This document shows, in pieces, positions 9,871-55,600 of a stretch of DNA of 58,886 bases (position 1 is the stretch's first letter; each line of letters starts with the position of its first letter). The notes beneath the pieces were generated by a model. It did no database searches. It was not told where the DNA came from and saw only the letters and a list, made by a program, of their open reading frames with translations. The position numbers were made by a program, and so were the translations under genes. The stretch covers positions 1-58,886 of IMG/VR virus record IMGVR_UViG_3300006484_000012; one strand, given 5' to 3'. Source of the DNA: a virus.

Positions 9871-9871
9871 A

Positions 9872-10207
9872 ATGAAACAGTACATTATAACAGGCATTAT
9901 AGTAATAATAGCTATCGCACTTCTATACCCAGGATCTTACGATGATTCTAAATATGAACAAGCTATAGATAGCTTAAATGTAGAAATACAAATTAAACAA
10001 GATTCTATTAAAATATCTCAACTAAAAATAGATACTCTTGAACATAAGGTGCAGTTAGCCGAAGATAAAATAAGAGATAATCAAGGTAAAGTCAGAAAAA
10101 TATATGAAACATATGAAATACAAATTCAGTCTGTTGACAGCTATGACATTAATCAGCTTGAGCAGTTTTTCTCAGATAGATATAAAGATACAACAGGTAC
10201 CAAATAA
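9872..10207 (+). CDS. Spanin-like inner-membrane subunit (putative)
   Basis: A 111-residue protein. It begins with a hydrophobic segment (about 4-20: YIITGIIVIIAIALLY) without a lipobox, followed by a long coiled-coil region (about 28-85) and a C-terminal QLEQFFSDRYKD. The order N-terminal anchor plus periplasmic coiled coil is the layout of an i-spanin. The last 104 bases overlap the next gene in another frame, as in the Rz/Rz1 arrangement. In Bacteroidota phages such pairs often lie next to lysis genes, though no endolysin is seen here. The role is inferred from architecture only. Confidence 0.5.
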   Translation: MKQYIITGIIVIIAIALLYPGSYDDSKYEQAIDSLNVEIQIKQDSIKISQLKIDTLEHKVQLAEDKIRDNQGKVRKIYETYEIQIQSVDSYDINQLEQFFSDRYKDTTGTK

Positions 10208-29400: not shown

Positions 29401-32400
29401 GATCATCCGGTCAAAATGGTTCTTCCGGCACAAGTGGAACTTCGGGATCATCTGGGTCTACTGGTACCTCCGGATCTTCAGGCTCTACTGGAACTTCAGG
29501 ATCATCAGGGACATCTGGATCCTCTGGACAAAACGGTTCATCTGGAACTAGCGGAACTTCGGGTTCTACAGGTACATCAGGTACATCAGGATCATCTGGT
29601 TCTTCTGGATCTAGAGGATCTTCAGGTAGCTCAGGTTCAACAGGAACTTCTGGTTCTTCTGGATCTACCGGAACTTCAGGTTCTAGCGGATCTACAGGAA
29701 CGTCTGGTTCTTCAGGAACCTCAGGAAGTACTGGCACATCTGGTACATCTGGATCATCTGGTACTGGTTTCAATACAATACATACTCCTGCTATAGGTAG
29801 AATACTACTAGCTGATAATAGCACAAATGCTGCTACAGCATCAGTCAGTATGAGCTTTAATAATGGGGTGTTATTACTAACAGGAAGCATTCTTGCAACT
29901 GGTAATATTCAAGCAAACACTTTAATAGTACAGACTATAAGCTCCTCTGTAATATACTCTAGTGGTTCTAATATATTTGGTGATAATTTATCTGACAGCC
30001 ATGAATTTACAGGCAGTGTTAAAGTTACTGGCTCTGTTTCTATAAAAAATCTAGCTCTTAACGCAGGCCTAACTCAGTTTGTAGTAATAGATCCAACAAC
30101 TGGTCAACTATATTATAATATTTCTGGTGCTGCAGGATCTTCTGGCACTAGTGGCTCTTCAGGTTCTTCTGGATCATCTGGTTCAAGCGGATCAAGAGGC
30201 TCTTCAGGCTCTACTGGCTCCTCAGGATCTTCTGGCTCAACTGGCACTTCTGGATCTTCAGGTTCTACTGGATCAAGTGGTAGCACAGGTTCTTCAGGCT
30301 CATCTGGTCAGAATGGGTCATCAGGCTCTAGCGGTTCAACTGGCACTTCTGGCTCTTCAGGTTCTTCTGGTTCTAGTGGCCAAAATGGTTCTTCAGGCTC
30401 ATCTGGTCAGAATGGATCATCTGGTACATCCGGATCATCAGGTGTAAGCCCTACTATAACAGGTACAGCGTACTATGTACCAAGATATAATGCAGCAGGT
30501 AATGCTTTAGAAAATACCACTGCTATGATATATAATAACGGCAATAATGTCGGTATTGGTATCACGACGCCAAACGCTAAACTACACATTAGTGGAGCGT
30601 CAGCATCAAATGCTTTAAATGTACACAGATTATCAGGATACGCAAGCATCTATGGTACTAATGATCTAATATTAGAAACAGATAGTACTTTCTACATAGG
30701 TGAATACGCAGCTAAGCCTATATACTTTAACGGTGCTAATGGAGTTCCGGGCACTGTTTATATAGCTTCTGATGGAAAGATGGGCATAGGTACTACATCA
30801 CCAGCAGTTAAATTACATATTGTAGGTCCTTCTTTAACACAAAATAGTGAAGCTACATATGGTTTATGGGTATCAAATACAGTAACTCCTAGTAAAGCAT
30901 TAGTATTAGGATACGATACAACAAATGATGCTGCCCAGATTAATGCCGTACATCAAGGAGTTGCATGGAAAAACATTTCCATGCAAACTAATGGTGGTAG
31001 TTTATTAATAGGTGAAACAACTACACCTTATCTGTCAAAGTTTGCTGTATCTTATGATGCTTCAACAACAAATGGGCCTATATTCTTAGACAATAGAACA
31101 TTTGGCTCAGGAAAGGGAGGAGCGTTACATTTAGGAGGCAGATATAATACCGCAGGATCTTACAGACCATTTGGTTCAATTGTTGGGGCAAAAGAGAATG
31201 CCACTGATGGGAATAGTGCAGGTTACCTTGATTTTTATACCAACAGTGATGCAGCAGATCCTTCACAAAAAGTGCGTATCACCTCTGCTGGCTACGTAGG
31301 TATAGGTACTACAAGTCCTCAATCTTTACTTCATGTAGCTGGAACTTTATCTTATGGATCAGTAAGAATAAGCCCAACCTCAACAAATGGTGAGGCTGCT
31401 ATGGGATTTTATTCTGACACTGCTGGAAGTACTACTAATACTTCTTGGGTAGTAGGACAAGGTGGGTGGGGAAACTCAGGTAAATTTGTCATAGGTAATG
31501 AAAATGGAAGTGCCGGAGGTAACGTAAGATTATTAATAGAACCATCAGGTAATGTTGGCATAGGTACTACAAGTCCGCAAGCAGATTTACACGTCTATAG
31601 AGCTGGGAGCACAGCAGGCACTACTATTGGATTAAAAGTTAACCATGAGTGTAATGCTGTCGATTTTGTAGTTTTATTTACAGGTAACGAATCAGTATCT
31701 ACCAACAGATTCGTAATGACTCAAGGTGGTGACATAGGTATAGGCACCACAACACCAACAGCAAAACTCCAAGTATCAGGCTCTACAAACGTAGTAAACA
31801 TAATAGGGTCAGGAAGTTTAGCATCATCTTCTCTATTCTCAGTAGATGGAAATAACGGTAGATTATTTGAGATCACAGATGACCTATCTGACTCTATATT
31901 CTCTGCCAATACAATAGCAGGTCTACCTGCAATAGAAGCATTCTCAGACTACACTGTTACTTTAGGACAGTATAGTTCAGCAGGATCTACACTAAGAGTG
32001 TCTGGAAGTAACGTTTTAATATACACAGGTTCATTAGCTGTGGGAAATATTGTACCATCCACTACCAGAGGAAGGATAGATGCAACAAATGATATAGTTG
32101 CTTATAGCACATCTGACAAAAGGTTTAAGATTAATGTAACAGAAATAGCAAATGCTATAGGAAAGATAAATGAAATAAGGGGAGTTGAGTTTGACTGGCT
32201 TACCAACCCAGAATATCACGGAAACCAAGGACATGACGTAGGGGTAATAGCTCAAGAACTTGAAAAAGTACTACCAGAGGTAGTTACTACAAGAGAGAGT
32301 GGGTATAAAGCAGTTAAGTATGAAAAAATAATACCTTTGTTGATAGAAGGTATAAAAGAACAACAAAAACAAATAGAAGATTTACAAAAACAAATTGACT

Positions 32401-32417
32401 ATTTGACAAATAAATAA
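26481..32417 (+). CDS. Giant collagen-like tail fibre with C-terminal S74 chaperone
   Basis: A 1978-residue fibre. The N-terminal part (1-180) has GSFTGSF-type repeats and a THEFTGSLYISGS module. Four collagen-like Gly-X-Y blocks of Gly/Ser/Thr follow, at about residues 184-353, 434-620, 760-1095 and 1215-1321. Two beta domains interrupt them (about 354-433 and 622-758). The distal shaft carries five GIGTT-SP or TP repeats, each followed by a KLHI-type strand. The C-terminal 100 residues match the Peptidase S74 intramolecular chaperone: SDKRFKINVTEI near 1877, VGVIAQELEKVLPEVV and YEKIIPLLIEGIKEQ. This domain trimerises fibres and then usually cuts itself off before SD. It is the only fibre in the window with a visible S74 domain. 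Confidence 0.9.
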   Translation: MATWLQITPQDGNATYNNVTVYNTIVANSVSSSFTGSFTGSFNGTFSGSFEGVSQTASWAISASYAISASHFDEVDPVFVAKSESLATTGSNIFYGSQSIYGDLVLRGTASIDMLIVTYQSSSIIYASGSTKFGDTIDDTHEFTGSLYISGSIYDPHLQYTSSADLFVVVDPITGEFKYSSSGASGTSGTSGTSGSTGSDGTSGSSGTSGSSGSGGTSGTSGSSGSGGTSGSTGSSGSTGTSGSTGSSGSTGSSGSTGTSGSSGSTGSSGSTGTSGSSGSSGSSGTSGSSGSSGTSGSSGTSGSTGTSGTSGSSGSTGTSGTAGSTGTSGTSGTSGSTGTSGTSGTSGSAGRSGDRYLTTSTTCATLGQSGSITVELGLSYSTAQTFLMSYDVNNYQEASVVSYNPSTGVLVYSIPNVTVGSGNYCSWQVNLAGASGGDGSSGSSGTSGSSGQNGSSGSSGTAGTSGSTGTSGSSGSTGSSGSSGSSGTSGSSGSTGTSGSSGSTGTSGTSGSTGTSGTGGSSGTSGVTGSSGTSGSTGTSGTSGTTGSSGSTGTSGTTGTSGSSGQTGSSGSSGETGSSGTSGSSGSSGSRGSSGSSGTSGSSGSSGSSGQNGSSGTSGTSFSYDPVTIPSASALIYRDEIETTGTATNASAKTFTISANTYDFIMAEAEIDYLTQANTNSTATFNLSYGGVVKRSIVLRGDATGAGDQFAMGAVLKYSELATTSQAITVSVTATAGAGTWYVESLRIYGIKSYVTGAGSSGSSGTSGSSGTSGSSGSSGSSGTSGSSGTSGSSGTRGSSGSSGSTGTSGSSGSSGTSGTSGSSGTSGTSGSAGTSGSTGTSGSAGTSGSAGTSGQTFGTSGSSGTSGTSGSSGTSGSSGSSGTSGSSGTSGTSGTSGSTGTSGSSGTSGSSGSSGSSGTSGSSGQNGSSGTSGTSGSSGTSGTSGSSGSTGTSGSSGSTGSSGSSGQNGSSGSSGQNGSSGTSGTSGSSGSTGTSGSSGSTGTSGSSGTSGSSGQNGSSGTSGTSGSTGTSGTSGSSGSSGSRGSSGSSGSTGTSGSSGSTGTSGSSGSTGTSGSSGTSGSTGTSGTSGSSGTGFNTIHTPAIGRILLADNSTNAATASVSMSFNNGVLLLTGSILATGNIQANTLIVQTISSSVIYSSGSNIFGDNLSDSHEFTGSVKVTGSVSIKNLALNAGLTQFVVIDPTTGQLYYNISGAAGSSGTSGSSGSSGSSGSSGSRGSSGSTGSSGSSGSTGTSGSSGSTGSSGSTGSSGSSGQNGSSGSSGSTGTSGSSGSSGSSGQNGSSGSSGQNGSSGTSGSSGVSPTITGTAYYVPRYNAAGNALENTTAMIYNNGNNVGIGITTPNAKLHISGASASNALNVHRLSGYASIYGTNDLILETDSTFYIGEYAAKPIYFNGANGVPGTVYIASDGKMGIGTTSPAVKLHIVGPSLTQNSEATYGLWVSNTVTPSKALVLGYDTTNDAAQINAVHQGVAWKNISMQTNGGSLLIGETTTPYLSKFAVSYDASTTNGPIFLDNRTFGSGKGGALHLGGRYNTAGSYRPFGSIVGAKENATDGNSAGYLDFYTNSDAADPSQKVRITSAGYVGIGTTSPQSLLHVAGTLSYGSVRISPTSTNGEAAMGFYSDTAGSTTNTSWVVGQGGWGNSGKFVIGNENGSAGGNVRLLIEPSGNVGIGTTSPQADLHVYRAGSTAGTTIGLKVNHECNAVDFVVLFTGNESVSTNRFVMTQGGDIGIGTTTPTAKLQVSGSTNVVNIIGSGSLASSSLFSVDGNNGRLFEITDDLSDSIFSANTIAGLPAIEAFSDYTVTLGQYSSAGSTLRVSGSNVLIYTGSLAVGNIVPSTTRGRIDATNDIVAYSTSDKRFKINVTEIANAIGKINEIRGVEFDWLTNPEYHGNQGHDVGVIAQELEKVLPEVVTTRESGYKAVKYEKIIPLLIEGIKEQQKQIEDLQKQIDYLTNK
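27025..27540 (+). repeat. Collagen-like Gly-X-Y block 1
   Basis: Encodes tandem G-S/T-S triplets, mostly GTS, GSS and GST. Codons for Gly, Ser and Thr vary between copies, so the DNA is far less repetitive than the protein. Confidence 0.9.
27781..28343 (+). repeat. Collagen-like Gly-X-Y block 2
   Basis: Same triplet type as block 1. GQNG and GETG triplets interrupt the Ser/Thr pattern at intervals. Confidence 0.9.
28757..29764 (+). repeat. Collagen-like Gly-X-Y block 3 (longest complete block)
   Basis: About 335 residues of Gly-Ser/Thr triplets, with a GQTFGTSG interruption near 29050 that breaks the triplet phase, and several GQNG units. Confidence 0.9.
30124..30446 (+). repeat. Collagen-like Gly-X-Y block 4
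   Basis: About 107 residues of the same triplets leading into the GIGTT-repeat shaft. Confidence 0.88.
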
Positions 32418-36392: not shown

Positions 36393-37724
36393 ATGGCACT
36401 ACCATTAAGTGGAACATTGTCGATGAATGATATACGAGTAGAACTCGGAATACCTGCGCAATCTCCATTTTCTTTGGATACTGCTACTAATGGTGGATAT
36501 GTCACCCTGAATATATGCAGCCCATATTTGCCAGTATCTACTAACCCAGACGCTATCAGTGAATGGTACGGGTATTGTCATACTTGTGTTTGTCCAACAA
36601 CGCCTACACCTACTCCACTACCAGCAACAGCTACTCCTACTCCTTTACCAGCTACTGCTACACCTACACCTACTCCTACTCCTTTACCAGCAACAGCTAC
36701 TCCTACTCCACTACCAGCAACAGCTACGCCTACGCCTACACCACTACCAGCTACTGCTACTCCTACTCCTACACCTACTCCACTACCAGCTACTGCTACG
36801 CCTACACCTACTCCTTTACCAGCTACAGCTACACCTACTCCACTACCAGCTACAGCTACTCCTACTCCTTTACCAGCAACAGCTACTCCTACTCCTACTC
36901 CTTTACCAGCTACTGCTACACCTACACCTACTCCTACTCCTTTACCAGCAACAGCTACTCCTACTCCTACTCCTACTGTAGCCTCTGTTCTTTGGACCAT
37001 TGGATATAATGGAACTGGAACTTGGAATGGATGGAGTGATTTTGGAACAGCTTGTTTCTATGCTGAGTCTATACCATTCCCTAAAAATGTTTATACTGCT
37101 GGTAGTAGTTTTGTAAATGGATCTATACTGTATACCGATGTTACTAGAGCAACACAATTTACTTCTGGAGGTGGATGGTTTACTATCTTTGCTGGAGGTA
37201 ATAGATATGGCTTTACATATACTACTAATGTTGGTGTTCAAAACCTTACAATATGTGCTGCTTCAACTCCTACACCAACACCTTTACCAGCAACAGCTAC
37301 CCCTACTCCTACACCTACTCCTTTACCAGCTACTGCTACACCTACACCAACAGCTACCCCTACTCCTACCCCTACGCCAACAATACTAACATACACAATT
37401 AACATATATGGTAAATTTGTTTCAACAGATCCGCCACTAGATGCTGTGGCTATATGGACTTCTCCAACTGGAAACGCCGGTACTTGGACTAGAAGAGGAT
37501 CAGGATTAACATCTACTTGTACTGTTAAATACACAGCTACGGTTACTCCGGGAACTACAATATACTACTGTATTGCAGATGGGGCAGACGAAACTATTGT
37601 GTACGCTACCGGTGTCTCTACTACTGCTACATGTCCTGCTAGTGTTGGATCTAGTTGCGTTTCTTCTGTTACTATTAATGCTAATACTAATAGAGCTTTA
37701 ACTTGTGGAAGCGGTCTATGTTAA
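36393..37724 (+). CDS. Virion protein with [10 protein letters not shown] repeat linkers
   Basis: A 443-residue protein. The N-terminal domain (1-63) opens [19 protein letters not shown], a start typical of phage structural proteins, and ends [10 protein letters not shown] long tandem linker of [10 protein letters not shown] units follows (about 64-195), then a small beta domain (195-285), a second linker (287-330), and a C-terminal domain (331-443) with [19 protein letters not shown] and [13 protein letters not shown]. This last domain is nearly the same as that of the gene at 667-1401, about 36 kb away. Frames +1 and +2 inside the repeat are open only because of the repeat. Thr/Pro linkers are possible O-glycosylation targets, and the glycan island starts 43 bases downstream. 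Confidence 0.75.
36595..36978 (+). repeat. Tandem Pro-Leu-Pro-Ala-Thr-Ala-Thr-Pro linker repeat
   Basis: About 13 units of [10 protein letters not shown](TP), with variable numbers of TP pairs and with shuffled Thr, Ala and Pro codons. A shorter second run lies at 37264-37383. Confidence 0.9.
37264..37383 (+). repeat. Second Thr/Pro linker run
   Basis: Two [10 protein letters not shown]-type units followed by [11 protein letters not shown], inside the same gene as the first run. Confidence 0.85.
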
Positions 37725-37767: not shown

Positions 37768-40329
37768 ATGAAACAAAAGTTATTATTTATAGCTCCACAT
37801 CTCTCTACCGGAGGGATGCCACAATACCTCTATAAACAGATTACAGCCGTTTTAGAGGACTTTGACGTATATTGTATCGAATGGGATAACGTAACAGGCG
37901 GAGTCCTTGTAGTACAGCGTAATAGAATCCTAGAGGTATTAGGAGATAAGTTGATAACCTTAGGTGAGGATAAGACTAAGTTGTTCTCGCATATCAATAC
38001 CATAAAGCCTGATCTGATACATCTTCAGGAGATCCCAGAGATGTTTATGGGATATGAAATAGCTGAAAAACTATATGCAGGTGATCGTACTTATAGAATA
38101 ATTGAGACATCTCACGACTCTAGTTACGAGGTTAAAAATAAAAAACACTTCCCAGATAAGTTCATGATGGTTAGCCAGTATCAAGTAGAGGCATACAAGG
38201 CTATTAACATACCATGTGAACTAGTAGAATATCCTATAGAATACAAAACCAGGACCAAAACTAGGGAAGATCTATTGATTGAATTAGGGTTAAATCCAAA
38301 TAAAAAGCATGTTATTACGGTGGGCCTATTCACTCCTAGAAAGAATCAAGCAGAGGTCATAGAATATGCTAGGATGCTTGAAAACTACCCTATTCAATTT
38401 CACTTTATTGGGAATCAGGCGGACAATTTTAAACCGTATTGGGAGCCTTTAATGAAGAATTTTCCTCCAAACTGCAAGTGGTGGGGAGAAAGAAGTGATG
38501 TTGATAAGTTTTATGAGGCTGCTGATTTATTTCTGTTCACGTCTAGGGGATTTGCCACTGATAAAGAGACCATGCCGCTAGTAATAAGAGAAGCTATCAG
38601 TTGGAAAATACCATCTTTTATCTATAATCTTGATGTATATTTGAATTATTTTGATACCTTTGATAGTATTAAATACTTAGATTTTAAAAGTAAGGAAAGT
38701 AATATTAATGGCATATTAAAATCATTAAAAATAAATACTATGGCTTCTTTCTATGTAAATTATGATAGTGCAGATAATAAAGTGTATTTAAAATCTGAGG
38801 AAACCTATGAAGGTATTATAGTTTCAATAAAAGATATAGACTCCCATGCTGTAATATGGGCTGCTAAATATGATTTTTTTTATAAAGATATGGAGTATTG
38901 GATTATACCTTCTCCAAAAAGTTATTTAGATTTTGAAAAGGATCCTACTTTTGGAGGACTTTTAGTAGAGTTCTATCAAAAAGGTGCGCTTATATTTAGT
39001 AAAAGTATAAGAATAAAGGAAATCTTTGTAGATAAACCTAAGTTGATAATTAAAAACATAGAGGAACCCACCTATATAAATTACGTAGAATTTTTTATAG
39101 ATAAAATATATGACAATTATTTAAAAGAAAAGAACTTTGATACTATAGTAGACGTAGGAGCCAACATAGGAATTTGGATAGAGTACGTAAAAAGCGTATC
39201 AAATTATAAAAAAATATATGCTTTAGAACCAAATTTAAAAGCATTAAAAGTTCTAAACGATACATATGGAAACTCACCAGAAGTACAGATAATTAGCAAA
39301 GCTATGTCAAACATAGATGGAGATCTTGAGTTTTTTGTAGATGAAGAAAATTCAACTATATCCTCAGCCGCTAAATACGGAAACTTAAACAACTCCTATA
39401 CTGTATCATCTATAACTCTTAAAACTTTTCTAAAAGAATACAACTTAGAAAAAATAAATCTATTAAAAGTCGATATTGAAACTGGAGAATATGATTTATT
39501 CTCTTCTCTAGATGAAGAAGATTTTAAAAAAGTAGATAATATCTTAGTAGAATATCATCTAATAGCAGGAAAATCATACGATGTAGACGTTAAAAATCTG
39601 ATAAACACATTAGAAAAAGCAGGGTATAATCTGACAGTAAGAAATATGCACTCTATAGGAGGCTTCATATTTGCAACAAAAGAAAAAGTAAAACAATCAT
39701 TAGATAATATAAAACTTAAAGACTACCTAGATAAAACCCCAGCTCCAGATAAAAGAGATTTGGCAGTAATAGTAAACAACTTATTTCCTGAAGGAAAGGG
39801 AGTTGAAATTGGTGTTTTGAGAGGAGACTACTCAAAGTTAATATTGGAAAGATGGCATAAGGGTACTCTATACATGGTTGATACATGGAGACATCTAAGT
39901 GATTATATAGACATGAATGGCCAAGATGATGCATATCATTATGATTGTTTGGTAAAAACATGTGAATCTGTAAAACCTTGGCAAGAAAGAGCGCATATAC
40001 TAAGAATGGATAGCGTGCAAGCAGCTAGCTTATTCCCAGATGAGCATTTTGATTTCATATACATAGATGCTGATCATTCTTACGAAGGGGTTGTTAGAGA
40101 TTTAAAGGCTTGGTGGCCTAAGATAAAGAAAGGTGGATTGTTTTGTGGAGATGATTATATACCAGATGATGGAGATATTTGGTTGGTATTAGGAGACAAG
40201 CAAGAGTATGCAGGAAAGTTTGGAGTTAGAAAAGCAGTGAACGAGTTTATAAACAAAAACAATCTTAGTTTATACGAAACTAAAAATGAACCTTACTGGA
40301 AACAGTGGTATACTTTTAAACCATATTAA
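37768..40329 (+). CDS. Fusion: GT4 glycosyltransferase, FkbM methyltransferase and second SAM methyltransferase
   Basis: An 853-residue fusion. Residues 1-300 look like a GT4 (GT-B fold) glycosyltransferase: KLLFIAPHLSTGGMPQYLYK, VITVGLFTPRKNQAEVIEYA, and LVIREAISWKIPS near the donor site. A small beta module (about 325-430) is shared with the next-but-one gene. A FkbM-type methyltransferase follows (about 435-640), with VDVGANIGIW near 461 and LLKVDIETGEYD near 566. The C-terminal part (about 655-853) is another class I methyltransferase, with VEIGVLRGDYS near 679 and FIYIDADHSYEGV near 763. It probably adds a sugar and O-methylates it. TATCTTTGC upstream (37742-37750) resembles a Bacteroidota -7 box. 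Targets are unknown. Confidence 0.85.
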   Translation: MKQKLLFIAPHLSTGGMPQYLYKQITAVLEDFDVYCIEWDNVTGGVLVVQRNRILEVLGDKLITLGEDKTKLFSHINTIKPDLIHLQEIPEMFMGYEIAEKLYAGDRTYRIIETSHDSSYEVKNKKHFPDKFMMVSQYQVEAYKAINIPCELVEYPIEYKTRTKTREDLLIELGLNPNKKHVITVGLFTPRKNQAEVIEYARMLENYPIQFHFIGNQADNFKPYWEPLMKNFPPNCKWWGERSDVDKFYEAADLFLFTSRGFATDKETMPLVIREAISWKIPSFIYNLDVYLNYFDTFDSIKYLDFKSKESNINGILKSLKINTMASFYVNYDSADNKVYLKSEETYEGIIVSIKDIDSHAVIWAAKYDFFYKDMEYWIIPSPKSYLDFEKDPTFGGLLVEFYQKGALIFSKSIRIKEIFVDKPKLIIKNIEEPTYINYVEFFIDKIYDNYLKEKNFDTIVDVGANIGIWIEYVKSVSNYKKIYALEPNLKALKVLNDTYGNSPEVQIISKAMSNIDGDLEFFVDEENSTISSAAKYGNLNNSYTVSSITLKTFLKEYNLEKINLLKVDIETGEYDLFSSLDEEDFKKVDNILVEYHLIAGKSYDVDVKNLINTLEKAGYNLTVRNMHSIGGFIFATKEKVKQSLDNIKLKDYLDKTPAPDKRDLAVIVNNLFPEGKGVEIGVLRGDYSKLILERWHKGTLYMVDTWRHLSDYIDMNGQDDAYHYDCLVKTCESVKPWQERAHILRMDSVQAASLFPDEHFDFIYIDADHSYEGVVRDLKAWWPKIKKGGLFCGDDYIPDDGDIWLVLGDKQEYAGKFGVRKAVNEFINKNNLSLYETKNEPYWKQWYTFKPY

Positions 40330-40330
40330 T

Positions 40331-41161
40331 ATGATACTAATACTATACAGTGATAAAGGGTGTGAACATCAAGCGATATGTTGCATTAAATCTTTAACAA
40401 ATAAGTTAGGAGATAATGATCAAATTGTATACTATACTGTAGGGTTCAAAAGTGATTTTAATTTTAAAAAATTATATAAAATACAGATACCTGTAAATCC
40501 TACATACCCAAGATTTCATTATTATAAGGCAGAACTTTCTCTCTATACTATGGATCTTTTTCCAAATCAAGAGTATGCTTTTACAGATACTGATGTTTTA
40601 TTTTCATCTAACTTTGAATTTAATAAAGTATCCCATTCAAATAACTACCCTTTAGCATCGTATGGTCCATTTGAATACCCTTTTATGTGGTGGGATGGCC
40701 CTGGAGGTAAAATTATATACGATGAAAAAGCTTTGATGAATTATTGTAACGTTCAACAAAGAAGCCAAAGATATCTATGGTCTTGTTTCTATTCTTTTAA
40801 TGAAAGTTGTAGAGATTTTTTTGAAGAATATACCTCTTTTTGTAATAACAAGTATCTCTTAGATAGACAAGCCTTATATTACCCTTATGCAGACGAGACC
40901 TCTTTTAATATATGTCTCTGGAAAAGAGGGGCTACTAATAATCTTGGGTTCGCTTTTGTAAATACTCATAGATTAGAGACTGTAAAAAAGGTAGAAGAGT
41001 ACAAAGTGACCAATCAACACGGAGGAAATAACTACGATGCGTTTGGATCCGATTGGGAATATATACATGACTCCAAAGATATTTTATTATATCATGGGTT
41101 TAAAGAAAAGGATCAAATGGAAGAAGCAACAAACTATATTTTAAATTTACAATCCAAGTGA
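40331..41161 (+). CDS. DxD glycosyltransferase-like protein
   Basis: A 276-residue protein. I place the start at 40331, two bases after the previous stop (MILILYSDKGCEHQAICC), rather than at an in-frame ATG 45 bases upstream that overlaps the fusion gene. A nucleotide-sugar transferase fold (GT-A type) is suggested by the N-terminal strand-helix pattern and by AFTDTDVLFSSNF, a DxD-like motif. A YADETSFNICLWKRG segment and a DSKDILLYHGF ending complete the usual layout. The enzyme is likely to work with its neighbours on one glycan. Donor and acceptor are not known. Confidence 0.68.
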   Translation: MILILYSDKGCEHQAICCIKSLTNKLGDNDQIVYYTVGFKSDFNFKKLYKIQIPVNPTYPRFHYYKAELSLYTMDLFPNQEYAFTDTDVLFSSNFEFNKVSHSNNYPLASYGPFEYPFMWWDGPGGKIIYDEKALMNYCNVQQRSQRYLWSCFYSFNESCRDFFEEYTSFCNNKYLLDRQALYYPYADETSFNICLWKRGATNNLGFAFVNTHRLETVKKVEEYKVTNQHGGNNYDAFGSDWEYIHDSKDILLYHGFKEKDQMEEATNYILNLQSK

Positions 41162-42081
41162 AGTTCTTAAATGTCAATTTTAAAAAAGAAACTTTTACAA
41201 TTCTTGTAAAGTATCTACAAGAAACTGAAATTAAAGGGAAAATAGTAATCTCAGACTTACTCATAGACTGTGTTTATTTTATATGGGATGTACAATTAAA
41301 CAAATCATTTGATGGGTGGGTAGTTCCTTTTAATGAAAAGATAAATGACACTATAATAAACAGTAAAAGTTTTTACGGCTTTAATGTAAAACTGTATAAT
41401 GAAGAAAACAGACTCTTACAAGTAGAGAAGATACTAGTAAACGACAGTGTTTACGAAACAGGCACAATGTACGCAACTCCAGAATTTGATGTTACTGGCC
41501 CTTCTTACGTAGATTTTTTTTATGGAGATCTGTGTAAGAACATAGATACTTCTGGAACGGTTATAGATGCTGGAGCTAATGTAGGATTCTTTACTTTATA
41601 TTGCAAAAAACATGGATCAAAAAGAATTTACAGCATAGAACCTGATCCAATGCCTTTTTTTTATTTAGAAAAAAACTATGGTTTTGATCCCGGAATCATA
41701 CTCTTAAACAAAGTATTAAACGATACAGAACAGCCTGTAAGTTTTGATATATGCATAGGCGCATCAGTAGGAAGTGCTATAAGCAAGTATACAAACTATG
41801 AAAATAAACAATCTGTATTGGTGGAGTCTGTGACAATTAATAGTATACTTAAAATAGAAAATAGAATAAATCTGTTAAAATTAGATATAGAAGGGGCTGA
41901 GTTTGATGTAATAGAAAAGTTAACAGCAAATGAATTTGATAAAATAGATCAAATGTTTATAGAGTTTCATAATAATCCAAAAGATATAGAAAGCACTCTA
42001 ATAAACAATAATTACTTTGTTGAGTACAGAAACTCTACCAAAGAAGATACTGTAGGATTTATATACGCTAAGAAAAGATGA
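41158..42081 (+). CDS. FkbM-family methyltransferase with N-terminal beta module
   Basis: A 307-residue protein with a GTG start that overlaps the previous stop. The N-terminal 110 residues (VNFKKETFTILVKYL, GKIVISDLLIDCVYFIWDV, GWVVPFN) align by eye with residues about 325-430 of the fusion at 37768. The methyltransferase domain follows, with VIDAGANVGFF near 136 (SAM-binding motif), IYSIEPDPMPF, and LLKLDIEGAEFDVIEKL near 238. FkbM enzymes O-methylate sugars or glycosylated products. Two FkbM domains in one island suggest two methylation steps or alternatives. Confidence 0.85.
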   Translation: MKFLNVNFKKETFTILVKYLQETEIKGKIVISDLLIDCVYFIWDVQLNKSFDGWVVPFNEKINDTIINSKSFYGFNVKLYNEENRLLQVEKILVNDSVYETGTMYATPEFDVTGPSYVDFFYGDLCKNIDTSGTVIDAGANVGFFTLYCKKHGSKRIYSIEPDPMPFFYLEKNYGFDPGIILLNKVLNDTEQPVSFDICIGASVGSAISKYTNYENKQSVLVESVTINSILKIENRINLLKLDIEGAEFDVIEKLTANEFDKIDQMFIEFHNNPKDIESTLINNNYFVEYRNSTKEDTVGFIYAKKR

Positions 42082-44159
42082 AGATAATAAACGTCACTCC
42101 AGGATTAATACCAATCCCTCCTAATGGTTGGGGAGCTGTGGAAAAAATAATATGGGAAACTCATAATGCCTTGTTAAAACTAGGGCATAATTCTACAATA
42201 GAATACTTAGATGATGTAAAAGACTGTGATGTGGTGCATATTCATGTTGCTAATCTAGCAAACATTGCACATGAGAGAGGTATTCCATATTACTTTACAA
42301 TGCATGACCACCATGCGTATCTATATGGGAAAGATTCAGCAGTGTTCAAAGAAAACATGCTTGCAATCAAAAATGCCAAAAAAGCATTCGTCCCCGCTAA
42401 ATTCTTGGTCGGTTATTTTGGAAACATACCGGAGTATTTTTCTCATGGAGTAAACATAGACTACTTCACTCCTAGTGGAACTAGCGAACCAAAGCTATTA
42501 TGCGTAGCAAATAATGGGTTTATACACGATCAAGCGGAGGATAGGAAGGGTTTTGGGTATGCCATAGAAGCTGCTAAGAGGTTAAACCTACCTATAACCA
42601 TAGCTGGGCCCAGTAACAACAAGAGATACTTTGAAAAATACCCTTCTGACTATGAGAAGCTAACAATTCTATATGATCTAACAGAGGATCAATTGAAAGA
42701 CTTATATAAAGAGCATAGTTGCTTCTTACACTTATCCACTTTAGAAGCTGGACACCCGAATCTAACTCTACTGGAGGCAATGGCATCAGGTTTGCCAGTA
42801 GTGGGTACGTATGAAGATGGTAATAGTCTGGATGGTATGATAGTGGTGGGTAGAGATGTAGACCAAACAGTTAAAGCAATAGAGGAAGTATTTGCCAACC
42901 CCACTAGGTATTTGTATTATTCAAATACTGCAAGAATGCAAGCTAAAGATCTATCATGGGAAAATAGAACAAAAGAACTGTTAAAACATTACACAATGAG
43001 TTTTAAAAAACAATTAATAGATAGCTACAATAATACTAAAATTATAGGAGTAAAATCTAAGCCTCTTAGTCCTGTGTTCAATATGAATTTTATAGATGGT
43101 GCTTTTTTTGAGATATTAGGAGGACCCGACAGGGAGTACAATGTCCAGTTTATAAACAAAAAAACTGGACAAATAGTCCATAAATCCAATATAAAAAAGG
43201 ATCATTGGGTAAAGGCATCAATCTCATATTTTGTAGATTGGAGTATATTTGTAGACGATGGCCTAAGTTCATATGAGTTTAAGCCAGACTATACCGGTAA
43301 GAGAGTGTATATAGCTTTAGACTCAAAAGCACTAGGTGATACTCTAGCTTGGTTTCCATATGTAGAAGAGTTTAGAAAAAAACACAACTGTAAGGTAGTT
43401 TGTTCTACTTTTTGGAATCATTTCTTCAAGCCAGAGTATCCAGAGATTGAGTTTGTTAAACCTGGGGAAGTGGTGAATAATATATATGCCATGTATACTT
43501 TAGGCTGGTTCTACACCCCAGACGGGTCTTTTGATTTTAGAAAGGTTCCTGAAAACTTTAGAGACCAATCACTACAAAAGACAGCCTCAGATATATTGGG
43601 ATTAGAGTTTAAAGAGGTAAAGCCAAAGATAAAGCTACCTAAAATAGGATCAAAAGAAAGAAAAGTTACTATTGCTATGCATTCTACAGCACAATGTAAG
43701 TATTGGAACAATGAGACGGGGTGGCAGAAGTTAGTAGACTACCTACTGGAGAACAAGTATGAGGTTGTAATGGTATCTAAAGAAGAAGATGGCTACATGG
43801 GAAATAAATATCCTAAAGGAGTGACACATCTACTAGATAGCAGCTTAGAATCAGTAATAAGTGAGGTATTAACATCAGAAATGTTCATTGGAATAAGTAG
43901 CGGACTAAGCTGGTTGGCTTGGGCTTTAGGAACTAACACATGTCTAATATCAGGGATAACCAAGCCTGAGTCAGATTTTACTCCAACAGTAAGGATATCA
44001 CCAAAAGAGTCTGTTTGTAGATTCTGTTTTAATAAAGAGAAGCTAGATCCAGGAGATTGGAACTGGTGTCCTAAGCATAAAGGAACAGATCGGCAGTTCG
44101 AATGCACCAAAACAATCACTGCAGAGGATGTAATCTCAAAAATATCCAATCTACTGTAG
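42078..44159 (+). CDS. Fusion: GT4 glycosyltransferase and TibC/Aah-like protein O-heptosyltransferase
   Basis: A 693-residue fusion. Residues 1-310 form a GT4 glycosyltransferase: PPNGWGAVEKIIWETHNAL, FVPAKFLVGYFG, and HLSTLEAGHPNLTLLEAMAS. Residues 315-693 look like a bacterial autotransporter heptosyltransferase: FNMNFIDGAFFEILGG (335-349), LDSKALGDTLAWFPYVEEF (414-432), AMHSTAQCKYWN and GISSGLSWLAWALG (605-618). The final C647, C650, C664 and C676 match the iron-binding cysteine motif of TibC. That family O-glycosylates serines of repeat proteins with heptose. Here the sugar could differ. It overlaps the previous gene by four bases. Confidence 0.85.
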   Translation: MKIINVTPGLIPIPPNGWGAVEKIIWETHNALLKLGHNSTIEYLDDVKDCDVVHIHVANLANIAHERGIPYYFTMHDHHAYLYGKDSAVFKENMLAIKNAKKAFVPAKFLVGYFGNIPEYFSHGVNIDYFTPSGTSEPKLLCVANNGFIHDQAEDRKGFGYAIEAAKRLNLPITIAGPSNNKRYFEKYPSDYEKLTILYDLTEDQLKDLYKEHSCFLHLSTLEAGHPNLTLLEAMASGLPVVGTYEDGNSLDGMIVVGRDVDQTVKAIEEVFANPTRYLYYSNTARMQAKDLSWENRTKELLKHYTMSFKKQLIDSYNNTKIIGVKSKPLSPVFNMNFIDGAFFEILGGPDREYNVQFINKKTGQIVHKSNIKKDHWVKASISYFVDWSIFVDDGLSSYEFKPDYTGKRVYIALDSKALGDTLAWFPYVEEFRKKHNCKVVCSTFWNHFFKPEYPEIEFVKPGEVVNNIYAMYTLGWFYTPDGSFDFRKVPENFRDQSLQKTASDILGLEFKEVKPKIKLPKIGSKERKVTIAMHSTAQCKYWNNETGWQKLVDYLLENKYEVVMVSKEEDGYMGNKYPKGVTHLLDSSLESVISEVLTSEMFIGISSGLSWLAWALGTNTCLISGITKPESDFTPTVRISPKESVCRFCFNKEKLDPGDWNWCPKHKGTDRQFECTKTITAEDVISKISNLL

Positions 44160-44253: not shown

Positions 44254-47200
44254 ATGGCCCAAATACTCAAACTCCGAAGGAGCGCTATATCTGGCGCTAA
44301 GCCTACTATATCCCAAATAGAATTTGGTGAAGTAGCAATGAACACAGCTGATGGTAAGCTGTTTATGAAGGTTAGCGGTAGCGGAGGAGATAGTGTAATA
44401 GAAATAGGGGCCAATTCTGCAAATGTTTCCGGATCTATATACCATATACCTGTATTCTCAGGTCCTAATAATATAGTAACCAGTTCAATATACCAATCTG
44501 GATCTTTTACATCTATAAGGAAAACTACAGTTCCTGTAAATCCAACAAATCCAGATATACTATTTGTAAACGGAGATGGTGTAAATACTTACAATCTTAT
44601 ATCTGCACATGGTAGGCTTAATAACTATGTACAAGTAAATGTACAAAACTACAGTGCAGGGGCTTTTGCTTCTTCTGACATAGTAGCTACTGCAGATAAT
44701 GGGAACGAGACTGTCAGATATATTGACATGGGTATCAACAGTAGCGGATACACATCCCCAGACTTCGTAGGTTCTGCAGGAGATGCATATATGTACTCTA
44801 CTGGTAATGATCTATATCTAGGTAATGCTTCTGCTGGTAAAAGGGTAATAATATTTAACGGAGGCTTTGATGCCTTTGTTAACGCTAGAGTGTTTATACA
44901 CGAACAGGGTACCATAGGATTTAATACAGATACTATAGATTATGATAATCCATCGTCTCTAAGAGTATTCGCAGCAACTACTAGTTCATATAACTTAATA
45001 TATGCACAAGGGGATGTAAATAATTACTCCCAGATTAATATAAAAAATATTAATTCTGGAGTTACCGGATCTTCTGACATAGTAGCAACCAGTAACATAG
45101 GTGATGAAGAAAGCTACTATGTTAATATGGGTATCAATGGAGACGGCTATAATATAGAAGATGGAATAGGCAGTCAAAATGATGCTTATTTATACTCTAT
45201 TGCAGAAGACCTATTGATAGGAAATGCTGCTGAAGGCAAAAGGGTTATTATATTTAATGGTACGGGATCAGCAGTAGCCAACGCTCGTGTGTACATAACT
45301 GCAGACGGTACCGTAGGAATTAACGCTAGTGATAATAACCCATCAAATCCAGAATCATTATTAGTAGAACCTTTGGTAATTACAGGAGTAGGCCCGTCAG
45401 GTTCTTTTTCTAACTTAATAATAGGAAAGGGTATAATAAATGAAAGTTATTTACAGTTAAACATAATAAACTTAGGTACTGGATCATATGCATCTGCTGA
45501 TATAGTAGCTACAAATGATATAGGAACTGAAACTGATAACTACGTTGATATGGGTATCAACAGTAGTAATCACATATTTGATCCATCGTTTGGTGTTGGT
45601 GGGCCTAGTGATTCATATCAATTTTCTACGGGTAGAAACCACTACATAGGTAGTGCTACTAGCGGTAGTTTAATTTTCTGGACTAGAGAAGACTTTGACG
45701 GTGAATTAGGAGCTAAGTTAACACTAAGACCAAATGACGTACACTCCTTAACCGGATCTCTATCAGCTACAAACGGATTCACAGGTTCGCTACAAGGGAC
45801 TTCTAGTTGGGCAGAGAACGCTTTAACTGCTTCTTATATAACAGCCTCTAATGTTTACGGACCTTATGGACAAAACAGTGTAATAAGCGCATCACACGCT
45901 GTTACAGCATCTTCAGCAGACAATTTCCTTGTTAGAGGCACGCTTACAGCACAGACTATAGTAGTTCAAACTATTACATCTTCTGTAGAGTTTGTAACAG
46001 GGTCTACTCATTTTGGAACCATCATCCAAAATACACATGAATTTACTGGATCTTTATCAATATCTGGATCCTTAGTAATCAACGGTACATCATACACTGC
46101 AGCCACATCAGGAACTAGTGGTACATCTGGTACAGCAGGATCTTCAGGCACTTCCGGAACCTCTGGTTCATCTGGTTCTACAGGTACTAGTGGTAGTTCT
46201 GGTACATCTGGTTCATCTGGATCAACAGGTACTAGCGGCAGCTCTGGTAGTAGTGGCTCTTCAGGCACTTCTGGCAGCAGTGGTTCAACAGGAACTTCAG
46301 GATCTTCTGGGTCAACAGGTACATCTGGCTCTTCTGGAACCTCAGGGTCTTCTGGAAGTGCAGGAACATCTGGAACTAGTGGAAGTTCCGGTAGCACAGG
46401 TACCTCTGGATCATCTGGTACAAGCGGAACATCCGGTTCTTCTGGATCTACCGGTACTTCAGGATCTAGTGGGTCAAGTGGCACATCGGGATCATCAGGT
46501 AGCACAGGTACAAGTGGAAGCTCAGGATCTAGTGGATCTACTGGTACATCAGGTTCAGCAGGAAGCTCAGGCACTAGTGGCAGCTCAGGTACTTCTGGAA
46601 GTGCAGGATCTAGCGGAACGTCTGGTTCCTCAGGTAGTACAGGTACATCCGGCTCTTCTGGTACTTCTGGCTCAGCCGGATCTTCTGGAACATCAGGAAC
46701 TTCAGGAAGTAGCGGTACAGGGTTTAATACTATAAGCAATGCTGCTATAGGCAGAGTCTTAATATCTGACGGTACTTTAAATGCAGCCACAGCATCAGCT
46801 ATCCTAACCGTTAATAACGGAGCGGTGAGTATGTCTGGCAGTGCGTTCATCACTGGCTCACTGACAGTATCAAATACAATAACAGCACAGACTCTTATAG
46901 TACAAACTATCACGTCTAGCGTAGAATTTGTGACTGGGTCTACTCATTTCGGTAGTATAATATCAAATACACACGAATTTACTGGTAGCGTAACTATATC
47001 AGGGAGTTTATCTGTAAATAACAGCAGTGTTGTATTGTCTAATCAGACAGGATCAATGTCTGTTGCTACTGCTTCAAATGTATTAGGAGGTGCTACAAAC
47101 TATATACCACTATGGAGTGGAGCAACTAGTTTAAGTAGCAGTGTAATGTACCAATCATCAAGTAATATTGGTATAGGTACTACAACTCCAAATGCTTTAC

Positions 47201-48657
47201 TAAATATAGTATCAACTTCAGGAGACGCTTTTATATTTAAAGGATCTGGTGGTAAAGAATTTATTAGTATTAATCATTTGGGTTATCTTAAATCTAGAGC
47301 TTCTGACACTAACGGAGCTAATATGCATTTTCTTGATAATGCTGGAGCCAAAAGAATGGAAATGGCTGTTGATACAACATCCATGAACTGGTATTCTGAT
47401 GCTTTAGCTTCTTTCTTTTTAACATTCCAACATTCAACAGGAAATATTGGTATAGGTACTACAAACCCATCATCAAAATTAGAAGTAGTTCAAAGTGGGT
47501 CAATACCGGGTATTACAGTTAAAGATGGTACAAATCCACAAATTCAAACTACTAATGGTACTGTAATTGCAAAGCTACAAATAGCAGCTAGTGCTTTAAT
47601 AGGTACTGAAACTAATCACGATTTTACAATCTATACAAATAATACTGAAAAGGTGCGCATTACCTCTACTGGTAATCTCGGCTTAGGTGTTACACCGAGT
47701 GCGTGGGATAATGGTCAAAAAGTTTATCAAAGTGGGTTAGGTTCATTTTATGGTTTACCAGATGGTGGAGCAACTATTTTAGTTAACAATGGATATTATA
47801 ATTCAGGTTGGAAATATAGCTCAAATGGTTCAGCAGGTAATTATCAAATAGTTCAAAATGCACACCAATGGTTAACTGCCCCAATCGGCACGATAGGCAA
47901 TGCTATCACCTTCACCCAAGCAATGACTCTTACTGCTAATAACAGGTTATTAATAAATCAAACTGGTGACACTGGAGAACAACTACAAGTTAATGGTACG
48001 GGTAGGTTTAGTGGTGGGTTGACATTAAACAGAGCAGCAGGGGGAGATGCAAATGGAATAATATTACAAACATCTGGGACAAGTAATTGGTATGTTGGTA
48101 GTTCGGCTATAGGGTCTAATACAGATTTGCAATTTTATAATCATTCAGCAGCAGCAGTTGTTCTTAATATTGCCAATACCACAGGTGCAGCCACGTTTAG
48201 TAGTAGTGTGACTGCAGCTTCATTCACAGGTTCTCTATTCGGCACTGCAAGCTGGGCAGAAAACGCAATAACATCATCATACTCACTAAATGCGATAAGC
48301 GCATCATATGCTGCAACAGCATCATACGCAAACTCTTCATTTGATATAGGCATAGCCGAATTCAATTCAACTTCCTCTACAACAGCAGCAGGAACAACAG
48401 CCGTATCTATAATCCCTACAGGATCATTCAAATCAGCATTTTACAATTATTATATAATGTCTGCTTCAAATGCCAGATCAGGACAAATAATGTCAATATG
48501 GAGTGGAAGTACAGTAAGATATACCGAAGTGACAACTACTGATATAGGAAATACATCACTAGTGTACATGAGTGTTGGACTATCTAACGGTAATGTTCTA
48601 CTTAATGCATCTTCTTCTGGAGGTTGGACAGTAAAAGCATTAGCAAACTTATTATAA
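44254..48657 (+). CDS. Giant collagen-like tail fibre 2
   Basis: A 1467-residue fibre. The start, MAQILKLRRSAISGAKPTIS, is a common phage fibre N-terminus that links to the baseplate. Three tandem repeats of about 130-140 residues follow (about 95-500), each with an ASSDIVAT-like and a DMGINSS-like segment. A SSADNFLVRGTLTAQTIVVQ module precedes one collagen-like block (about 618-822) and a second copy of the THFG...THEFTGS part. The distal shaft has GIGTTTP repeats and a closing GSLFGTASWAENAITSS module. No S74 chaperone domain is present, so trimerisation must be achieved otherwise. Confidence 0.87.
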   Translation: MAQILKLRRSAISGAKPTISQIEFGEVAMNTADGKLFMKVSGSGGDSVIEIGANSANVSGSIYHIPVFSGPNNIVTSSIYQSGSFTSIRKTTVPVNPTNPDILFVNGDGVNTYNLISAHGRLNNYVQVNVQNYSAGAFASSDIVATADNGNETVRYIDMGINSSGYTSPDFVGSAGDAYMYSTGNDLYLGNASAGKRVIIFNGGFDAFVNARVFIHEQGTIGFNTDTIDYDNPSSLRVFAATTSSYNLIYAQGDVNNYSQINIKNINSGVTGSSDIVATSNIGDEESYYVNMGINGDGYNIEDGIGSQNDAYLYSIAEDLLIGNAAEGKRVIIFNGTGSAVANARVYITADGTVGINASDNNPSNPESLLVEPLVITGVGPSGSFSNLIIGKGIINESYLQLNIINLGTGSYASADIVATNDIGTETDNYVDMGINSSNHIFDPSFGVGGPSDSYQFSTGRNHYIGSATSGSLIFWTREDFDGELGAKLTLRPNDVHSLTGSLSATNGFTGSLQGTSSWAENALTASYITASNVYGPYGQNSVISASHAVTASSADNFLVRGTLTAQTIVVQTITSSVEFVTGSTHFGTIIQNTHEFTGSLSISGSLVINGTSYTAATSGTSGTSGTAGSSGTSGTSGSSGSTGTSGSSGTSGSSGSTGTSGSSGSSGSSGTSGSSGSTGTSGSSGSTGTSGSSGTSGSSGSAGTSGTSGSSGSTGTSGSSGTSGTSGSSGSTGTSGSSGSSGTSGSSGSTGTSGSSGSSGSTGTSGSAGSSGTSGSSGTSGSAGSSGTSGSSGSTGTSGSSGTSGSAGSSGTSGTSGSSGTGFNTISNAAIGRVLISDGTLNAATASAILTVNNGAVSMSGSAFITGSLTVSNTITAQTLIVQTITSSVEFVTGSTHFGSIISNTHEFTGSVTISGSLSVNNSSVVLSNQTGSMSVATASNVLGGATNYIPLWSGATSLSSSVMYQSSSNIGIGTTTPNALLNIVSTSGDAFIFKGSGGKEFISINHLGYLKSRASDTNGANMHFLDNAGAKRMEMAVDTTSMNWYSDALASFFLTFQHSTGNIGIGTTNPSSKLEVVQSGSIPGITVKDGTNPQIQTTNGTVIAKLQIAASALIGTETNHDFTIYTNNTEKVRITSTGNLGLGVTPSAWDNGQKVYQSGLGSFYGLPDGGATILVNNGYYNSGWKYSSNGSAGNYQIVQNAHQWLTAPIGTIGNAITFTQAMTLTANNRLLINQTGDTGEQLQVNGTGRFSGGLTLNRAAGGDANGIILQTSGTSNWYVGSSAIGSNTDLQFYNHSAAAVVLNIANTTGAATFSSSVTAASFTGSLFGTASWAENAITSSYSLNAISASYAATASYANSSFDIGIAEFNSTSSTTAAGTTAVSIIPTGSFKSAFYNYYIMSASNARSGQIMSIWSGSTVRYTEVTTTDIGNTSLVYMSVGLSNGNVLLNASSSGGWTVKALANLL
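46109..46721 (+). repeat. Collagen-like Gly-X-Y block in fibre 2
   Basis: About 204 residues of Gly-Ser/Thr triplets, with occasional Ala (GSA) and no GQNG units. Confidence 0.9.
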
Positions 48658-52645: not shown

Positions 52646-55600
52646 ATGCCACAAGAATTTCGGATAAAAAACGGGGTCATAGTAGACCAAGGAGGGGCTA
52701 ATATAACAGGCTCTTCAGCTATTTCAGGATCTTTAGCAATCAATGCTTCAGGATCTAATGTATTTACTGTTGACGGCACTTCAGGCCGTCTCTTCTCAGT
52801 CGATGATTCTCTATCAGGATCTCTATTTTCCGTCAATACAGCCGCTGGATTACCCGTAATAGAAGCCTTCTCAGATAATACTGTCAGAATTGGCCAGTAT
52901 GGTAAACAAGCACTATATGTATCTCAATCTTTAGTAGGTATAGGCAAGGAAGGGCCCTTAAGCGCCACCTTAGATGTATCCGGATCAGTAGCTATAACTG
53001 GTAGTTTAAACGCACCAAGCATAACTGGTAGCCTATTTGGAACCGCAAGTTGGGCTCTAAATGCTATAACATCATCATATGCAGTATCTTCTAGCTTTGC
53101 AACAACCTCTCTAACAGCTTCTTATGCTGTTAATATGATTATATCTGGAGGATTAACAGATGTAGATTATATACAATTTGATACTACGGCATCTGTAGTG
53201 GATGCTGTGGGAAGATTAAAGTATGATTCTGGAGAAGGTACTCTACAACTTGGATTAGCTGGAGGAAATGTTATTGCAAATATAGGTGAAGATCTATACC
53301 AATACGCTTACAACAGTACAGGAAATCCTTTAACAAAAGGACAAGTAGTATATATTTCAGGATCACAAGGCAACAGAGTAGCTGTTAAATTAGCTTCAGC
53401 AGTTGCTGAACAAGGATCAGCTAATACTTTAGGATTTGTAGCAGAACCAATATCAGCTGGAGCTGAAGGATGGATACAAACAGAAGGATCTTTAAGAAAA
53501 ATAAATACATCTGGATTAATAGCTGGTAGAGCTATATATCTAAGCGGTTCTGCAGGACAATATACTCAAACTAGACCAATTGCTCCTAATCACACTGTTA
53601 TCTTAGGTTTTGTTGAGAGAGTAAATGCTACTTTAGGATCAATATACATAAAAATCGATAACGGTTACGAATTAGGCGAGCTCCACGATTTAATAGACAC
53701 GACAACTACATCATCATACGGTGATCTGCTCGTTAAAAGCGGAAGTGTTTGGACTAATTCTAAACAACTTACCGGATCTTATCAATTAGTAGGATCTATT
53801 AATATAACAGGGTCTTTAAAACTATCAACTCCTACTTATAATACATCTAGCATAAATGTACTTACGTACAACACAGCTAGTAGTACAGTAGAGTATAGTA
53901 CTATCAATGATCTTACTTTCACAAAAAATATAGTCAACGTAGGACTTTCTGGAAGTAGAGGAGTTAGGTATAACGCTATTAAGACTGCCATATCTAGCAT
54001 CACAGATGCTTCTGAGAACAATACTTACACAGTAAGTGTAGCTCCTGGAATATACATAGAAGATACTATTACTGTTCCTTCTTGGGTAGCAATTAAAGGA
54101 GACAGTTCTATATCAACTGTAGTTTCTGCCTCTAACCCTAGTTCAAGTATCTTTGTAATGAGTGACCAATCTATGGTCATAGACATGCAGATTCAAGGAA
54201 CTACTTTTACAGGATCTTCTGCGGTAGTGTACTCTTCTGCTACAACCCCTCAAAGAAATGCAATTGCTTACGTAGAGAACGTTCGCTTTGGAACTAACTA
54301 TACAAACGCTAAAGTAATTGGTAGCGGAAGTAGTGGAAACTGTATATTACAATGTTCTAACGTTAAATACGGAGGATACACAGACGCAGGCTTATTAAAA
54401 TCATTTGATGTAGGATTCCATGTAACTTCTGGTTCAAGCGGAGGTATTGGTAGGATGCAATTGAGAAACGTCACTTCTACAAATGGTGGTGTAGCAGGAA
54501 GTGACAACAACCAAATATTTGCTTTAGCAGACGCTCCTGGTTGTACATTCATTGTTAATGGATGTTTGCTAACAAGATCGACAGGAACTGCTAGAGGTAC
54601 TGGATTTAAAGTATATAACGGGGGACAGCTTCGTTTAACAGGTGTTAACTTCCAAAGGTGGATAAATGGTATATGGGCTCCACAAACCGGATCAGCACCA
54701 AGTATAGATGCAATTGCACTTAACTTTGAAAACTGTACAACAGACGTATTAATAGAACATACAGGATCTACAGGTAAAGTACAAGGTACAGATAACTTCT
54801 TAAAAACCATTATCCCCACAGATGCGCCTTTATATGAAGTAGGACAAGATCCAAGAAGATTGTTTGTAGCTAAAAAAGGAGGAGATTTCACCTCAATCAG
54901 TGCATCTGTAGCTTGGATTAGTGGGTCAAACGAGAATAATCGCTATGTAATTGAAGTTGGTCCTGGCCAATACACAGAAAATACAATTGACTTAACTGGT
55001 AGACCATATGTAAGTATTGTTGGTAGTAACATTCAAACTACACAGATATTCCCAAGCAGTTCTACCCAGCACATCATTAAGATGGGCATCAATAATGAAG
55101 TATCATTTTTGAGCTTAGCAAATGCAGGATCAGGATACTCAGCAATATATGTTGATGATATTGGTGATTTTGCTCAGGTACATAAAATATCAATTTACGA
55201 TTGTGATAGAGGTATAACTGTTTTAGCAAACACTACTGACACTCAATTCTATGGAGAATATGTTGATATAAACGGTACTTTTACTTATGGAACTTATATT
55301 TCCTCTAGTAATGGGGGTTCTGTATCTACTACTGTAGAAAACTACTACCTATTCCCTTCAGCAAGTGCTACTATAGGTAACTTTGTAACAGGTCCTAGCT
55401 CTAGCCTAAGTTTATATACATCTAAGTTCCTTGGAGACGGTACAACTGATTCAACAGCAGTTAAATTAGAAAATGGAGCTCAATTAGAAGGAGCTGCTAT
55501 TGATATTCAAGATTGGGATTATGGATATGTAGTACCTAATGTAGGAATAGGTCCTAACTTTAGAGTAGTGGGATCAATGATACACGACTCTACTACTTAT

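Follow-up and report, generated by a model that had tools for sequence, protein, structure and literature searches.

TibC-type heptosyltransferases are virulence-linked bacterial enzymes that act on autotransporters, and glycosyltransferases are common in phages. What would a phage do with a gene in which a TibC-like domain is fused to a second glycosyltransferase? This question is raised by IMG/VR virus record IMGVR_UViG_3300006484_000012 (positions 1 to 58,886; the whole 58,886-nucleotide stretch is called the window here), a virus contig whose major head and terminase genes are T4-like, which encodes on its plus strand (42078..44159) a 693-amino-acid (aa) fusion of a GT4 domain and a TibC-like domain. 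All window features described below lie on this strand. We propose, with a probability of roughly 0.57, that the product is a phage-encoded protein O-glycosyltransferase that puts heptose on the Gly-Ser/Thr-Ser/Thr (G-S/T-S/T) repeats in the fibres of the phage itself, its GT4 half adding another sugar. The TibC-like half would bind a nucleoside diphosphate (NDP)-heptose and transfer heptose to Ser/Thr in the (Gly-Ser/Thr-Ser/Thr)n repeats of neighbouring collagen-like fibre proteins, the fused GT4 half would attach a further sugar to the heptose glycan, and the FkbM-type methyltransferases and other glycosyltransferases of the surrounding gene cluster would complete it, the methyltransferases acting as caps. 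Such a glycan might stabilise, shield or tune the fibres.

The fusion had been claimed in an earlier note on this DNA, which placed the TibC/Aah-like part at residues 315-693, proposed a TIGR04414-type profile search among its checks, and would have been refuted by a predicted structure lacking the TibC fold or by cysteines out of register with the iron site. Pfam GT4 models, TIGR04414 and the GT-B and TibC folds all bear the fusion out. The open reading frame (ORF) begins inside the four bases, ATGA, that it shares with the FkbM-methyltransferase gene before it and encodes a GT4 domain (residues 1-310; 42078..43007), a linker (residues 311-330; 43008..43067) predicted at low confidence (predicted local distance difference test, pLDDT, ~50), and a TibC-like domain (residues 331-693; 43068..44156) comprising a beta-barrel, catalytic lobes, a thumb and a cysteine finger. 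The TibC fold is present: in the predicted structure (mean pLDDT 87), the model of residues 331-693 matches TibC (chain residues 21-387) with a Z-score of 40.5 and 2.4 Å over 354 residues at 32% identity. The TIGR04414 match covers residues 350-691 with 275.4 bits (6.6e-82), above the curated cut-off of 200 bits, and the closest relative by sequence in the PDB is TibC itself (4rap; E 6e-50, residues 337-690). The likeness to TibC/Aah stands, with a later start than had been claimed: the beta-barrel begins at about residue 331, and residues 310-330 form the linker.

The active site is conserved as well. The paper describing the TibC structure (PMC4358343) names D110 as the catalytic base, together with T226, K230, W305, the adenine contact R286 and the iron cysteines. 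By alignment, D110, T226, K230 and W305 correspond to D421, T537, K541 and W612 of the window protein, where LDSKALGDTLAW (residues 414-425) contains D421 (codon 43338..43340). C647, C650, C664 and C676 (44016..44105) align with the TibC iron ligands C339, C342, C358 and C370 and would likewise hold a metal. All eight residues are invariant in 76/76 nonredundant viral relatives, and both the catalytic core and the four cysteines singled out in the earlier note are confirmed by sequence alignment within the matching fold. Enzymes of the TibC type carry a ferric iron and form a dodecamer; in the window protein the thumb tip is still hydrophobic, with Y573-M574 where TibC has F265-V266, and the TibC sugar-stereoselectivity site P300 (PMC4358343) is replaced by Ser-607, a serine being found in AAH too. 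R286, by comparison, is highly conserved among the bacterial autotransporter heptosyltransferases (BAHTs; PMC4358343) and is present in every TibC-clade row of our alignment; in the window its place is taken by V593 (codon 43854..43856), with loss of the adenine contact, and an equivalent is retained in only 9/76 viral sequences. In a TibC-like protein of a Pacearchaeota metagenome-assembled genome (MAG; L068:997-3348), the D, T, K, R and W residues are kept and all four finger cysteines are gone.

How is this domain related to the bacterial enzymes? In a profile scan, TibC-like domains were found in at least 583 IMG/VR contigs, either standing alone (~385 aa) or joined to GT4 domains of other types, to FkbM or other methyltransferases, or to unassigned domains. 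A tree of 121 sequences unites TibC and the autotransporter-type bacterial enzymes in one clade (support 100); the window protein falls beyond this clade, among mostly viral sequences. The domain had been assigned to the autotransporter heptosyltransferases, and this part of the claim is not supported as it was put: the protein lies outside their clade, it lacks the adenine-contacting Arg, the neighbours that were scanned are not autotransporters, and its branch is tied to Gly-Ser/Thr repeats. Although it scores above the TIGR04414 cut-off, the domain is therefore filed as a TibC-like sister branch rather than among the autotransporter heptosyltransferases. A TibC-like mode of action is a claim apart from membership, and has better support. 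The window-type GT4 fusion changed at least 10 times on the tree. More than 25 other contigs share the same GT4-TibC fusion, including a 735-kb phage genome whose copy is 40% identical across 99% of the length, so the fusion is not an assembly artefact. Assembly error and chance fusion were both ruled out, since the same arrangement recurs in many independent contigs. Both halves are under purifying selection; the ratio of nonsynonymous to synonymous divergence (dN/dS) is ~0.1 for the GT4 half against the related contig L002, and the TibC part has a dN of 0.15 with dS saturated.

Three side observations concern these relatives. The records LR756501.1 and LR756503.1 (both 735,411 in length) give one and the same match at an identical position and are apparently duplicate deposits of a single genome. 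A protein of Microcystis phage Mel-JY01 that is annotated as 'methyltransferase FkbM' (L050:4397-8080; PP395634.1, WWT39291.1) has a C-terminal TibC-like domain. Tandem pairs of TibC-type genes occur in Acidaminococcaceae and their relatives (L079, L080, L081, L083, L084 and L093).

The separate TibC-like branch is mainly viral and tracks Gly-Ser/Thr-Ser/Thr repeats instead of autotransporters. In the window, three proposed acceptors carry such repeats. Directly downstream of the fusion lies a 1,467-aa collagen-like fibre (44254..48657; Pfam Collagen 1.8e-27), with a G-S/T-S/T block at residues 620-823 (46111-46722) that holds 130 Ser/Thr in 68 triplets. A tail-fibre protein (26481..32417; PHROG tail fiber 3e-115) has five such blocks with 491 Ser/Thr, and a large, open-ended fibre-like protein (52646..58885) has two, with 254 Ser/Thr.

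The same repeat accompanies the enzyme in bacteria. Outside the TibC clade, the chromosomal relatives (from Methylococcaceae, other Gammaproteobacteria, Burkholderiales and further groups) stand beside small secreted or lipoprotein-like proteins built of SGTSGTSGSS repeats, the very repeat of the window fibres. When one repeat criterion was applied to all genome-contig loci, a flanking repeat ORF was found at 18 of the 24 loci outside the TibC clade (a few of them on phage contigs that had been assigned to bacterial genome bins) and at 2/55 loci on the TibC side (p 8e-11), often 13-1,100 bp away. For eight genomes of 2.3-9.2 Mb (L062, L066, L067, L070, L072, L073, L075 and L076), all the listed repeat matches fall in the ORF or ORFs beside the gene, as do 13/15 matches in the L060 genome and 7/8 in the L074 genome. 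The strict repeat pattern was absent at the L055, L056 and L061 loci, with a GTAGTSG-type neighbour at L055. Three MAG loci (L059, L064 and L065, from Bacteroidetes, Flavobacteriales and Winogradskyella) have tail-sheath or collagen-like fibre genes, and their contigs look like those of phages binned with bacteria. This is clearest for L064 and L065, which hence give no independent bacterial support, even though they are counted among the 24. In Gammaproteobacteria, lipoprotein-like SGTSGSS ORFs (L070:5796-7003, L072:5905-7070, L073:6521-6901 and 9264-9890, L074:3730-4128, L075:3596-3934, L076:9222-9629) flank the TibC-like gene, several of them with an acidic tail, and look like one partner of a dedicated enzyme-substrate pair.

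Viral records point the same way. Among those of at least 40 kb, a six-fold repeat occurs in 23/40 records with the gene and in 1/46 without it (p 3e-9). In the reverse test, 16/30 viral records of this size chosen by the repeat alone contain a TibC-like gene. Relatives of the window capsid protein show the repeat in 3/3 cases with the gene and 4/43 without, most of these records being fragments. Among the control viral records, one of 207 kb (G107, that of L295) was alone in having many G-S/T repeats and no TIGR04414 match; it may encode some other enzyme that serves these repeats.

Which sugar would be transferred? In 16/75 nonredundant viral loci, the two genes following the TibC-like gene are an HldE-like pair, often overlapping. 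The first best matches HldE domain II, the heptose-1-phosphate adenylyltransferase (TIGR02199, ~1e-25 to 1e-29), and the second domain I, the heptose-7-phosphate kinase (TIGR02198, ~1e-31 to 1e-36). Because these genes adjoin the TibC-like gene in relatives, heptose is the likely sugar for the branch, a reading that is supported at branch level and only presumed for this phage. In one contig (L016), both Hld-like genes occur together with a complete GT4-TibC fusion that shares 60% identity with that of the window, and a 221-kb contig with the fusion has a heptose-7-P kinase-like gene. The idea that Hld genes are a universal feature of the branch was rejected, as domain II was found in only 1/28 of the records checked first; they mark a sub-branch. 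At least 580 viral contigs have an HldA-like gene, and at least 580 an HldC-like one, with most of the best matches away from TibC-like genes. GmhA-type SIS genes, considered as further evidence on the donor, were found in only 2/16 records. Split HldE-like pairs (a nucleotidyltransferase, then a PfkB kinase) are seen at L155:6078-7209, L159:6074-7205, L156:6080-7214 and 13 more loci, as well as at L137:6930-8043. Downstream of the TibC-like gene (at +2 or +4), 29 loci (L151, L155, L156, L159, L168 and others) have a conserved gene of ~800-1,200 aa, whose N-terminus resembles a nucleotidyltransferase through matches too weak to use. A bolder scheme, which we regard as doubtful, is that the phage branch uses split HldE-like enzymes to make its own nucleotide-heptose, possibly a non-ADP, virus-private donor, with which the TibC-fold enzyme loads hundreds of Ser/Thr in G-S/T-S/T fibre repeats, while fused glycosyltransferases and methyltransferases extend and cap the glycan. 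A private donor of this kind is conceivable because the enzymes beside Hld-like genes are those without the adenine-contacting Arg.

The GT4 half would supply the second sugar. It matches PF13692 (1.6e-10; 41.9 bits against a gathering score of 27) and PF00534 (8e-10, also above gathering), and its model has the GT-B fold, with Z ~26 to BshA and sucrose-phosphate synthase over 290-300 residues. The subfamily-invariant motif EAGHPNLTLLE, with E223 and E233, is an E-x9-E, two residues wider than the usual E-x7-E. In L064 and L065, which are related phage contigs, a GT4 homologue (E 5e-79) is unfused and has its own gene immediately ahead of the TibC-like one, which supports the view that both halves act on one product. 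On the same ground, the order of transfers suggested in the earlier note, priming on Ser followed by extension with a second sugar, is plausible.

The fusion gene is the last of a same-strand, overlapping run of sugar genes. It is preceded by a multidomain protein with GT4, FkbM-methyltransferase and Methyltransf_24 parts (37768..40329; Pfam and profile matches), by a putative GT-A-like glycosyltransferase (40331..41161) that is recognised by an invariant D-T-D motif only, has no family match and gave an unusable model (pLDDT 42), and by the FkbM-family methyltransferase whose end overlaps the fusion start (41158..42081; TIGR01444 2.7e-25). The TibC-like gene is preceded, in 54/75 nonredundant viral loci, by a same-strand member of this glycosyltransferase/methyltransferase group, with a relative of the multidomain protein at position -1. 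The run is flanked by the collagen-like fibre on one side and, on the other, by a mucin-like, Thr/Pro-rich repeat protein (36393..37724; without family matches), a possible second acceptor. The window capsid protein is closest to those of Flavobacterium phage immuto (54%) and Microcystis phage Mel-JY01 (52%), which makes a Bacteroidota host possible.

Alternatively, the acceptor could be another virion protein, such as the Thr/Pro-rich protein or a capsid or tail protein, with the G-S/T-S/T repeats being merely frequent in these phages. The Thr/Pro-rich ORF lies directly upstream of the cluster, its homologue adjoins the cluster in L002, and many viral records with the gene lack the repeat. 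We nonetheless consider this unlikely, as the ORF was not found beside the L003 cluster and the bacterial relatives indicate G-S/T repeats as the partner independently of phage type. A slightly less probable alternative is that the enzyme alters the host surface during infection by glycosylating lipopolysaccharide (LPS), the capsule or an adhesin of the host, which might for instance keep out superinfecting phages. Phage glycosyltransferases that change host surface glycans are already known (noted also in PMC12619734), GT9-type heptosyltransferases normally act on LPS, and a cluster of several glycosyltransferases and methyltransferases is typical of polysaccharide loci; against this, the nearest fold is that of the protein O-glycosyltransferase TibC, beta-barrel and cysteine finger included, the sugar cluster sits among virion fibre genes, and bacterial members of the branch are paired with G-S/T repeat proteins. 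That a true autotransporter heptosyltransferase was acquired by the phage and acts on a host autotransporter is highly improbable: the TIGR04414 score, TibC fold, active site and cysteine finger would fit, but the protein falls outside the TibC clade and has lost R286, no autotransporter was found among the flanking genes (the adjacent genes only were scanned, and are collagen-like fibre, FkbM and glycosyltransferase genes), and hundreds of viral copies do not look like a recent pick-up.

Heptosylation of the phage's own fibre repeats is the reading we prefer, and several points weigh against it. The repeat is missing from 17/40 viral records with a TibC-like gene and the gene from 14/30 repeat-bearing records, though most of both are fragments. 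It should be noted that the counts ignore shared ancestry, that the viral control set was picked by another gene and that fragments hide absences, and repeat-bearing fibres could simply be common in these phages. The Hld-like genes score below the curated cut-offs, even though TIGR02199 and TIGR02198 are their best matches, and no HldE domain II match was found in the window. Moreover, with the loss of the R286 that accommodates ADP in TibC, the donor may carry a nucleotide other than ADP.

In many phage fibres, and in some small secreted or lipoprotein-like proteins of bacteria, Gly-Ser/Thr-Ser/Thr repeats account for a large share of the sequence. If the proposal is right, these low-complexity repeats would gain a purpose as a sugar-bearing scaffold, with an enzyme and a likely sugar named, and phage fibre glycosylation would become directly testable by co-expression in E. 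coli. The open-access literature, a weak guide because it was the only literature covered, yielded no report of phage-encoded TibC-type enzymes or of a link between this family and Gly-Ser/Thr repeats.

Among known systems, phage virion glycosylation has been described for mycobacteriophages, in which phage glycosyltransferases act on the C-termini of capsid and tail-tube proteins (Freeman et al. 2023, cited in PMC12619734). The two cases have in common phage-encoded glycosyltransferases for virion proteins; they differ in that here the enzyme is of TibC type, a type not named in the passages of that source that were read, the proposed acceptors are repeat fibres, and the phages are T4-like. 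The GT4 half shares the GT-B fold with BshA (Z ~26) and with SdgB (Z ~23), which glycosylates SD repeats and is likewise a protein-repeat O-glycosyltransferase, but it has E-x9-E in place of the E-x7-E of such GT4 enzymes and only 16-20% identity to them. Compared with HldE (RfaE), the two small genes after the TibC-like gene in relatives match domains II and I, in split and divergent form. The closest comparison is with TibC and AAH (BAHT; TIGR04414; PDB 4RAP, 4RB4; PMC4358343), with which the window domain shares the whole fold, the catalytic residues, the cysteine positions and the hydrophobic thumb tip. It differs from them in being phage-borne, fused to GT4, outside their clade and changed from R286 to Val, and in having as its genomic partner a Gly-Ser/Thr repeat fibre and not an autotransporter.

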